The notes under the pieces: generated by a model | The model's database searches: none | Told to the model about the DNA's origin: nothing | Seen by the model: the letters and a program-made list of their open reading frames with translations, nothing else | In this document: positions 58,244 to 60,284 of the stretch, in pieces | Position numbering within the stretch: position 1 is the stretch's first letter | How the letters are laid out: every line of letters starts with the position of its first letter | Made by a program: the position numbers and the translations under genes | Source of the DNA: Limibacillus halophilus | Lineage (GTDB): Bacteria; Pseudomonadota; Alphaproteobacteria; Kiloniellales; CECT-8803 | Assembly: GCF_014191775.1 (NCBI RefSeq) | Contig: NZ_JACHXA010000005.1 | Span: forward strand, 1-64,000 | DNA length: 64,000 nucleotides | Direction: 5' to 3'

Positions 58244-59560
58244 TCAGGCGGCCTTGCTGTCCAACTTGGCGGCTTCCAGCGCCTGAGCAAGATCAGCAAG
58301 GATATCGTCGATATGCTCGATGCCGACCGACAAACGGACATAACCCGGCGTTACACCGCTGGCCTTCTGCTCATCTGCTGAAAGTTGCGAGTGGGTTGTA
58401 GTCGCCGGATGGATCGCTAGGCTCCTGGCATCGCCGAGGTTGGCGACGTGATAGAAGAGCTGTAGCGAGTCAATGAAGCGCCGCCCGGCTTCGGCACCAC
58501 CCTTGACCTCAAATCCGACGAGGCCGCCAAAGCCGCCTTTCAGATAGGTTTGCGCCCGGCGTTTCTGCTCGGCATCGCTGTGCGTGGTGGGATAAATCAC
58601 CTTCGTTACCAACGGATGCTTCTCGAGATAATCCGCCACGGCTTTGGCGTTGCGGCTGTGCTCCCGAATGCGCAACGGTAGGGTTTCCAATCCCTGGATG
58701 AACTGGAAGGCATTGAACGGGCTTAGCGCTGCCCCGAGATCACGCTGCAGGGTCACGCGTGCCTTGATGATATAGGCGATGGGCCCAAGCGGCTTCACGG
58801 CTTCCGTCCATACGGCGCCATGGTAGCTGGGGTCCGGTTGATTAAGGGCGGGGAACCGATCGGCATGCTTGATCCAGTCGAACTTACCGCTGTCGACGAT
58901 GAGGCCGCCGATTGAGGTTCCGTGGCCGCCGATGTATTTGGTCGCGGAATAAACGACGATGTGGGCGCCATGTTCGATGGGTTTGCACAAGAGCGGAGCT
59001 GCCGTGTTGTCAACAATCAGGGGAATACCCAACTCCTCGCCAATCTGCGCCACCTCCGCAATCGGGAAAACCGTCAGTTTGGGGTTGGGTAGCGTTTCCG
59101 CATAGAAAGCGCGGGTGCGCTTGTCCGCGGCCCGGCGGAAGCTTTCTGGGTCTTTCGGGTCGACGAAGCGGACTTCTATGCCGTAGTTCGGCAAGGTATT
59201 GGCAAACAGGTTCCAGGTGCCGCCATAGAGGTCAGTGGAGGAGACAATGTTGTCGCCCGCCTTGGCAATGTTCTGGATCGAGATTGCCGAGGCCGCTTGA
59301 CCGGAGGAAACAGCCAGGGCCGCTACACCGCCGTCCAACGCTGCTACCCGCTTTTCCAATACGTCCACGGTCGGATTCATGATCCGCGTGTAGATATTGC
59401 CGAGCTCTTTCAAAGCAAACAGATTGGCCGCCCGTTCGGTGTGTTCGAACTGGTAGGATGTCGTTTGATAAATGGGCACGGCGACCGATCCGGTTTCGGG
59501 ATCAGCGCGGTATCCCGCATGAAGAGCAAGGGTTTCAGGATTAATGTATTTGTTTGTCAT
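58244..59560 (-). CDS. metY: O-acetylhomoserine aminocarboxypropyltransferase (sulfhydrylase)
   Basis: 438 residues from ATG 59560, preceded by GGAAGGAAG; the frame is open 29 codons upstream through the riboswitch and is rejected. Makes homocysteine from O-acetylhomoserine and sulfide. PLP Lys208 in 'YSATKYIGGHGTSIGG', with 'SSGQAASAISIQNI' and the longer central insertion ('DRFPALNQPDPSYHGAVW') characteristic of MetY versus MetB/MetZ. A SAM-II riboswitch precedes it. Cytoplasmic tetramer by family. Confidence 0.95.
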   Translation of the reverse strand: MTNKYINPETLALHAGYRADPETGSVAVPIYQTTSYQFEHTERAANLFALKELGNIYTRIMNPTVDVLEKRVAALDGGVAALAVSSGQAASAISIQNIAKAGDNIVSSTDLYGGTWNLFANTLPNYGIEVRFVDPKDPESFRRAADKRTRAFYAETLPNPKLTVFPIAEVAQIGEELGIPLIVDNTAAPLLCKPIEHGAHIVVYSATKYIGGHGTSIGGLIVDSGKFDWIKHADRFPALNQPDPSYHGAVWTEAVKPLGPIAYIIKARVTLQRDLGAALSPFNAFQFIQGLETLPLRIREHSRNAKAVADYLEKHPLVTKVIYPTTHSDAEQKRRAQTYLKGGFGGLVGFEVKGGAEAGRRFIDSLQLFYHVANLGDARSLAIHPATTTHSQLSADEQKASGVTPGYVRLSVGIEHIDDILADLAQALEAAKLDSKAA

Positions 59561-59561
59561 C

Positions 59562-59619
59562 GCCGTGGCTTCCTTCCGAAAACAAATGAACCGCCACGGC
59601 CAAAGCTGCTGGGCGGTTC
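59562..59619 (-). promoter_or_regulatory. metY expression platform: two competing hairpins
   Basis: On the minus strand GAACCGCC (59619-59612) pairs with GGCGGTTC (59595-59588), followed by ATTTGTTTT. Overlapping it, GCCGTGGC (59600-59593) pairs with GCCACGGC (59569-59562) right before the ATG, with GGAAGGAA in the loop. The two share bases 59595-59593 and exclude each other. They fit control of translation start or termination by the riboswitch. Confidence 0.6.
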
Positions 59620-59645
59620 CTTTATTCCTCGTAGGAAGCTTGCCC

Positions 59646-59700
59646 ACGCTTTAGCCGCATTTATTAGGCGCCCGCAAGCTGTGCTTCAAATCGGCGCCGC
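59646..59700 (-). promoter_or_regulatory. SAM-II riboswitch aptamer
   Basis: Read on the minus strand, GGCGCC-GATTTGA opens the aptamer and the second GGCGCC (pairing with the first) is followed by TAATAAATGC-GGCTAAAG. These conserved blocks, their order and spacing match the SAM-II class (GATTTnA, then ATAAATG and GCTAAA), found before met genes in alphaproteobacteria. It ends 86 bases before metY. TTGACA at 59738-59733 is a likely -35 for its transcript; no good -10 was seen. Confidence 0.92.
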
Positions 59701-59765
59701 AATGGTCAGAGGGAAAAGATTTTTAGCCTTTTTGTCAACAGGCTTTTCCGAAAAGTATGCCTAAC

Positions 59766-60149
59766 TCAATCTTCAAGCTGTGTTTGGCAGCGAGAGATCG
59801 CCTTTACCAATTTGGTCAACTGTACCTTGATTTCACCATCCGGCAGTTCGTTCAAAGAGCGGGCCAACAGCACGGAATCACGAGACAACCTGCCGTCACC
59901 GACCGGCTCGGCCTCGCTCTCGGAACCGGGCTCGTCCAAATCCTCGAAGAAGTATCCAATGGGCGACTTGAGGAGCCGGCTGATAACCCAAAGGCGTCCG
60001 CTGCCGATCCGATTGGTACCCTTCTCGTACTTCTGAATTTGTTGAAAACTGACATCAAGAAGCTCGCCTAGTTGTGTTTGCGTCAATCCTCGGTCTGTAC
60101 GCAGTTGTCGCAAACGCTTGCCGATAGCTACGTCATACTTGTCAGCCAT
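59766..60149 (-). CDS. XRE-type HTH regulator, PhrR/PraR-like
   Basis: 127 residues from ATG 60149, chosen by the GAGG nine bases upstream. The N-terminal Cro/C1 HTH (about 8-65) has 'GKRLRQLRTDRGLTQTQLGELL' and 'SFQQIQKYEKGTNRIGSGRLWVIS', and then 'FFEDLDEPGS' and an acidic linker. This pattern is that of the rhizobial PhrR/PraR family, which regulates stress and quorum-sensing genes. It diverges from the valine operon across 195 bases and may regulate it or itself; both are inferences. Confidence 0.85.
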   Translation of the reverse strand: MADKYDVAIGKRLRQLRTDRGLTQTQLGELLDVSFQQIQKYEKGTNRIGSGRLWVISRLLKSPIGYFFEDLDEPGSESEAEPVGDGRLSRDSVLLARSLNELPDGEIKVQLTKLVKAISRCQTQLED

Positions 60150-60284
60150 TGTATCCTCATAGTCTCGTATGAACGGTAAAGAGTCACGATCTTGCAACTG
60201 ATCGTATAGATGAAATAAACGTATCATTTAGTAAATAAGTGAACAAGAGGGCGCAAAGGCGCAGGGCTGGCAGGTCACGCTTAT

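Follow-up and report, generated by a model that had tools for sequence, protein, structure and literature searches.

The window is a 64,000-nucleotide stretch of the Limibacillus halophilus genome. On its minus strand it carries metY (58244..59560), which encodes an O-acetylhomoserine sulfhydrylase of 438 aa (TIGR01326, 625.9 bits against a cutoff of 495.1). The start codon ATG lies at 59560, and the leader before the gene occupies 59738-59560 of that strand. A previous interpretation made from the letters alone (the sequence-only reading) had listed several motifs before metY, and these are indeed present on the minus strand where it had put them: a GATTTGA block at 59692-59686, ATAAATGC at 59664-59657 and GGCTAAAG at 59656-59649. 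The distance from GCTAAA to the metY start is 89 bases, with a methionine gene downstream of the aptamer.

For comparison, relatives were collected from the fetched loci with the pattern GATTTG, (C/A)TTGC, GCTAAA. This yielded 84 distinct stretches, of which 75 are first-type aptamers; the set does not include every RF00521 match. A TTGAC-like motif occurs 38-60 bases 5' of GATTTG in 59 of the 75 first-type aptamers (a loose pattern, scanned with no control). Together with its position and sequence, this marks TTGACA at 59733..59738 (minus strand) as a probable -35 element of the metY leader. No convincing -10 element was seen at the usual spacing, and a strict promoter scan found no promoter. 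An imperfect palindrome at 59712-59749, recognized by eye (GGAAAAGCC...GGCT...TTTTCC), surrounds TTGACA and directly follows the upstream helix-turn-helix gene (59766-60227, PF01381). It could be the terminator of that gene, or an operator.

The Rfam model of SAM-II (SAM_alpha, RF00521) matched 59707-59634 of the minus strand over its full length, with 32.4 bits and E 2e-5 in a search of 701 bases on both strands at a relaxed threshold. This was the covariance-model search that the sequence-only reading had called for, and it gave a match, yet one under the gathering cutoff of 36 bits. At that cutoff Rfam returned zero matches in the window. That reading had named the lack of a covariance-model hit as the outcome that would count against SAM-II, and at the gathering cutoff such a rule would have misfired. 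A second covariance model, R1, was made from 34 aligned aptamers of other loci, out of 51 distinct first-type aptamers. The window site was excluded from its training set, which includes the other SAM-II copy of the same genome (L001), and the structure of R1 consists of the P1 stem only. R1 matched 59704-59634 with 79 bits; the E-values, which are rough for this model, were 1.9e-22 for the window and 1.0e-20 for the genome. This was the one significant R1 match in the window; the next best (9.3 bits, E 0.42) is located elsewhere.

The P1 stem of 6 bp is formed by GGCGCC at 59693..59698 and GGCGCC at 59667..59672 (both minus strand), and closes the GATTTGA...CTTGC loop. In the 34 relatives, 98% of the P1 cells are paired and the covariation score is 0.168, each reached by 0 of 500 shuffles. 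The number of cells changed on both sides was likewise reached by 0/500 shuffles, the number of pairs with both sides changed by 15/500 and the number of pair types by 244/500. The GATTTG and GCTAAA blocks are both present in the window's aptamer; their invariance in the 34-sequence alignment is by construction, because the selection pattern contained both blocks. By eye, the only candidate for the P2 pseudoknot is CAC (59683-59681) with GTG (59647-59645). Judged from these matches, the element before metY is a SAM-II aptamer (59634..59707), as the sequence-only reading had proposed. The SAM-V model (RF01826) gave no match in 59300-60000 at E up to 10, and the same library detects SAM-V in the locus L106. 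No other Rfam family was credible at the site; four other matches were far under their cutoffs.

Across the order, with E 0.001 as the limit, RF00521 matched 49 of 58 genomes and R1 matched 55 of 61; RF00521 passed its own cutoff in 28 of 58. The 55/61 and 28/58 are not like for like, since the thresholds differ and these genomes supplied many of the 34 sequences on which R1 was trained. The counts suggest that the Rfam cutoff is strict for this order and leaves many SAM-II elements hidden. In the accessible text of a 2014 survey, Rhizobiales and Rhodobacterales are the only groups reported to carry SAM_alpha (PMC4239095).

The order of elements that recurs in the relatives is aptamer, intrinsic terminator, gene. 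A close metY (at most 2.5 kb away, on the same strand) follows 49 of the 75 first-type aptamers, a share that is biased because part of the fetched loci had been chosen for metY. In 28 of these 49 metY-linked leaders a second SAM-II-like aptamer follows the terminator. The remaining 21 are without one and include the window's leader, where both the R1 search and the pattern search found no second aptamer and the tandem layout is absent. Second aptamers (such as GATTTGAGGGGCAGCTTGC...GCTAAA) lie before metY, or before the gene ahead of it, in L013, L011, L119, L125, L129 and others. Among the tandem loci submitted to it, RF00521 saw the second aptamer in only three (L030, L022 and L129, 22-28 bits). 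In L012, R1 found four matches, arranged as two close pairs. SAM-II-like sites with an inserted hairpin (e.g., CCACGG...CCGTGG) were recognized by eye at L012:1504-1572, L141:204-272, L157:1504-1572 and L027:1504-1572; the hairpin sits between GCTAAA and a GGCCC strand able to pair with the loop GGGC. In a Pelagibacter locus, a SAM-V element (81.1 bits) follows a SAM-II-like site that scored 24.5 bits with R1; this is the published pair. The second SAM-II element of the window's own genome (G000:C3:442492-442570, that is L001 or L171:2001-2079) scored 39.5 bits with RF00521 and 74.9 with R1, in whose training set it is included. It has a terminator of its own and lies before an ABC transporter operon that encodes an NMT1-like binding protein (L171:2218-3222); folding of its leader predicts no antiterminator (terminator probability 0.98 with the aptamer free).

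The sequence-only reading had also described a terminator behind the aptamer of metY. Sequence and fold place its 5' arm (GAACCGCC) at 59612..59619, its 3' arm (GGCGGTTC) at 59588..59595 and a T-rich tract (ATTTGTTTT) at 59579..59587, all on the minus strand. The T-run is interrupted here, with a longest run of 4; T occupies 7 of the 9 positions that follow the stem. A run of at least 5 occurs in 39 of 45 comparable GGCGG terminators, the window counted among the 45. Support for the terminator comes from the relatives, despite the interrupted T-run: a GGCGG stem followed by T's comes after the aptamer in 45 of the 75 first-type cases. A simple terminator scan was not above chance (2 sites in 59300-60000, against 1.0 +/- 0.9 in shuffles), and 9 of 200 shuffles of the 50-base terminator stretch fold equally well. 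The leader as a whole is not unusually stable either, with 14 of 200 shuffles folding at least as well.

The terminator has a likely competitor in the aptamer itself. The conserved aptamer strand TGCGGCTAAAGC (59648..59659, minus strand), which contains the GCTAAA block, is complementary to GCTTTGGCCGTG (59595..59606, minus strand), which comprises the loop of the terminator and the beginning of the 3' side of its stem. Read 5' to 3', 59659-59648 can pair with 59606-59595 in a helix of 12 bp including G-U. When the leader was folded up to the T-run with the aptamer free, this antiterminator had a probability of 0.987 and the terminator one of 0.004; with the aptamer blocked, the terminator rose to 0.989. 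The occupied state was imposed here by blocking the aptamer bases, SAM and P2 being outside the model. At the T-run stage the antiterminator leads the imposed off form by 12.7 kcal/mol (-47.4 versus -34.7), with the binding energy of SAM uncounted. When the platform was shuffled with its dinucleotides preserved, only 9 of 5000 sequences reached a 12-bp helix and 5 of 5000 its energy; 3 of 2030 stretches of 63 bases in the window reach it, possibly with the site itself among them. Shuffling of the aptamer strand was less decisive, as 62 of 2000 shuffles gave an equally low energy. The duplex energy of -21.5 at the window site is the lowest among 54 distinct pairs of an aptamer with its own terminator. 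In these models, the 12-bp pairing of TGCGGCTAAAGC with GCTTTGGCCGTG is the likely competitor of the terminator.

In the relatives, we followed the corresponding pairing through covariation. The 30 of the 75 first-type aptamers without a GGCGG terminator and T's were dropped, and the other 45 gave 35 distinct rows. In these 35, 89% of the cells are paired when GCGGCT or its variant hexamer is set against the six bases that precede GGCGG, compared with 24-56% when the pairing is slid by 1-5 bases. Only 4 of 5000 permutations of the 35 rows were as good, with or without G-U. On the 22 distinct hexamer pairs alone, the counts were 47/5000, and 54/5000 without G-U. The third base of the hexamer is paired as G-C in 24 rows, A-T in 4 and G-T in 4, with A-C in 2 and C-C in 1; the first base is paired as G-C in 24, G-T in 6 and A-T in 2, and is unpaired in 3. 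Shared descent weakens these counts.

Folding with the aptamer free and occupied was applied to the 60 of the 84 stretches with a detectable terminator, which form the 54 distinct pairs. The L144 row was retained among them although the wrong hairpin had been chosen (terminator 0.00 in both states). At equilibrium, a clear switch (terminator below 0.3 free and above 0.7 occupied) appeared in only 13 of the 54, and only 6 of the 54 had a drop in the terminator that was equalled by no more than 5% of 40 shuffled aptamers. Swapping terminators among aptamers shifted the mean duplex energy only slightly, from -14.3 for own to -13.1 for swapped pairs (sd 3.5), a blunt comparison because the strands are nearly alike. 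In G001, the only other genome of the same family that was compared, the terminator had a probability of 0.13 with the aptamer free, but the minimum-energy structure uses other pairings. Hence the antiterminator pairing looks general among the relatives, with nearest-neighbour folding failing to reproduce the switch in most of them. In G001 a gene for an alpha/beta hydrolase (L153:1481-2377, PF12697) lies between the SAM-II aptamer and metY. Nearly all matches of an order-wide DNA search with the window's leader fell in the aptamer core (query 41-107); one more, at 125-165, was in G014:C99.

The terminator hairpin of the window's leader may also reach the ribosome site. The Shine-Dalgarno region GGAAGGAA lies at 59570..59577, and an anti-Shine-Dalgarno strand, GCTTCCT, at 59633..59639 (both minus strand) is predicted to pair at the base of an extended terminator hairpin. 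In folding of the full leader, GCTTCCT (59639-59633) pairs with AGGAAGC (59574-59568) with a probability of 0.92 in the free and 0.99 in the occupied state. Opening the ribosome site is predicted to cost 3.5 kcal/mol with the antiterminator held (on) and 11.5 kcal/mol with the terminator held (off). In the antiterminator fold the start codon is predicted to pair with the first leader bases, which speaks against a fully open site. Furthermore, equilibrium folding of the full leader favours the off structure even when the aptamer is left free (terminator 0.95). The on state therefore would need kinetic trapping, with the antiterminator forming first and persisting.

None of 100 shuffled upstream sequences matched the masking in the window; when only the 22-base spacer was shuffled, under a different score, 12 of 300 did. 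For comparison we hand-picked 10 of the 21 single-aptamer metY leaders, leaving out L038, L118 and L135. Only two of the 10, the window's leader and L090, had masking at 0/100 shuffles. L140 reached 4/100, and the remaining seven leaders ranged from 19 to 95/100. L090:1370-1500 is a metY leader in a metagenome-assembled genome labelled SAR86, with a SAM-II element, a terminator and a lower stem over the ribosome site; its layout is nested like that of the window, in different letters. The sequence-only reading had proposed that termination and translation control are combined here. Dual control of metY remains plausible on the basis of these folding predictions, but through a different pairing (GCTTCCT/AGGAAGC) from the one it had in mind.

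The pairing that reading had in mind was a second hairpin, GCCGTGGC (59600-59593) with GCCACGGC (59569-59562), spanning 59562..59600 on the minus strand and competing with the terminator for three shared bases. This hairpin is a real inverted repeat that encloses GGAAGGAA, and the eight-base arms of the two hairpins do overlap at the three bases 59595-59593; the upper stem of the terminator in the predicted fold also uses part of 59600-59596, so that the true overlap is larger. Folded alone, the second hairpin has an energy of -20.6 kcal/mol, equalled by 1 of 200 shuffles. In the full leader it is predicted to be minor in both states, with probabilities of 0.02 (free) and 0.00 (occupied), and enforcing it raises the ensemble energy from -62.0 to -56.3, that is 5.7 kcal/mol above the unconstrained ensemble. 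We therefore rejected it as the main state of the switch. The switch between two mutually exclusive hairpins that had been suggested is thus not supported, and the predicted excluder of the terminator is the aptamer strand together with the loop and 3' side of the terminator. Moreover, a hairpin around the ribosome site would silence metY in the very state that is meant to be on, and we consider this platform very improbable.

Our preferred reading, to which we assign a probability of about 0.64, is a SAM-II off-switch for metY with a terminator set free by SAM, a TGCGGCTAAAGC/GCTTTGGCCGTG antiterminator and masking of the ribosome site in the same hairpin. The analysis shows the identity of the aptamer, the complementarity of the two strands, the covariation of this pairing among relatives and the shift predicted by folding. 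Binding of SAM, the sequence in which the leader folds, termination and any effect on translation we infer, as follows. In the absence of SAM, TGCGGCTAAAGC would pair with GCTTTGGCCGTG over 12 bp while GCTTTGGCCGTG exits the RNA polymerase. The terminator could then not close, transcription would enter metY and the ribosome site would be fairly open. With SAM, TGCGGCTAAAGC would be held in the aptamer pseudoknot, so that the terminator closes and transcription ends at the T-run. In transcripts that read through, GCTTCCT/AGGAAGC would extend the base of the hairpin and hide the ribosome site. Because the extended terminator hairpin is what hides the site, both effects would work in the same direction, and plentiful SAM would turn metY off. 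The stricter version of this reading is more tentative, and we consider it less likely than not: one SAM-II aptamer with two coupled outputs, in which the GCTAAA strand serves as antiterminator and the terminator is the top of a longer hairpin that hides the ribosome site.

An alternative explanation might be that SAM-II acts here by termination only, and that the ribosome site is masked incidentally, by a hairpin that happens to adjoin the start codon. This is a serious contender, if somewhat short of even odds. It agrees with the GGCGG terminators after 45/75 first-type aptamers, with the published association of alpha-proteobacterial SAM-II most often with terminators (PMC2258182, as far as its accessible text goes), and with the masking test, where just two of the 10 leaders stood at 0/100 shuffles and a third at 4/100. 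The window, however, is one of those two, its two states differ by 8 kcal/mol in the opening of the site, and L090 has a similar nested layout in other letters. The opposite emphasis, mainly translational control, would hold that the interrupted T-run no longer terminates and that SAM acts by masking the ribosome site. The longest T run of 4, where 39/45 comparable terminators have at least 5, would fit this, as would L053, whose short leader has the ribosome site within a stem and, by eye, lacks a T-run. But 7 of the 9 bases after the window's stem are still T, the antiterminator targets the terminator, and the masking in L053 was matched by 25/100 shuffles. We regard this explanation as unlikely. 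By family, then, the metY leader appears to be an ordinary SAM-II off-switch, with a likely base-by-base mechanism and a possible translational backup in the same hairpin.

Much of this has precedents. SAM-II elements with terminators, tandem leaders acting at two levels and dual riboswitches are already published. The accessible parts of three earlier studies (PMC1273637, 2005; PMC2258182, 2007; PMC4239095, 2014) describe SAM-II in alpha-proteobacteria, its terminators and its link to metY, and place the elements commonly upstream of terminators (PMC2258182; PMC1273637). In Sinorhizobium meliloti, according to the portion of the study available to us, the predictions are termination of transcription for the metZ element and a masked ribosome site for metA (PMC9373788). 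The metZ element shares with the window its aptamer, the class of its gene, a terminator after the aptamer and the logic of an off-switch. What sets the window's leader apart is that a predicted antiterminator can be named, formed by the aptamer strand and the 3' side of the terminator, and that the base of the terminator hairpin contains the ribosome site. A similar antiterminator for metZ may already appear in Figure S1 of the metZ study. Like the window's element, the metA element is linked to a terminator as well as to a ribosome site. Unlike in the predicted window mechanism, SAM is said to block the ribosome site of metA by way of the P2 pseudoknot, with a terminator that is not predicted to respond to SAM; a SAM-II-driven antiterminator could not be predicted for metA by the authors (PMC9373788, accessible text).

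Two control levels in one direction are also found in tandem SAM-II/SAM-V and tandem SAM-II leaders (PMC9481103; PMC11508383, both from their accessible text), whereas the window has one aptamer only. The accessible text of the 2022 survey gives 44 tandem SAM-II leaders, some of which act on transcription and then on translation (PMC9481103). Dual control by a single riboswitch is known as well: the ribB FMN riboswitch of E. coli and the c-di-GMP riboswitch Bc1 likewise use one aptamer for two control levels, with other ligands and folds, and Bc1 is reported to be incoherent, whereas the window's effects are predicted to run in one direction (PMC11218506, accessible part). The GCTAAA strand is not named as a SAM-II antiterminator in the literature that we searched; supplementary figures and most subscription papers were outside its reach, and hence we make no claim of novelty.

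As of 2007, the coupling of the SAM-II pseudoknot to a terminator was experimentally unestablished, according to the accessible text of PMC2258182. The leader of metY in the window offers a concrete, mutable model for the coupling of a SAM-II pseudoknot to an intrinsic terminator. If a single strand does drive both outputs here, it would be a compact single-aptamer substitute for the two-aptamer leaders found in many relatives.
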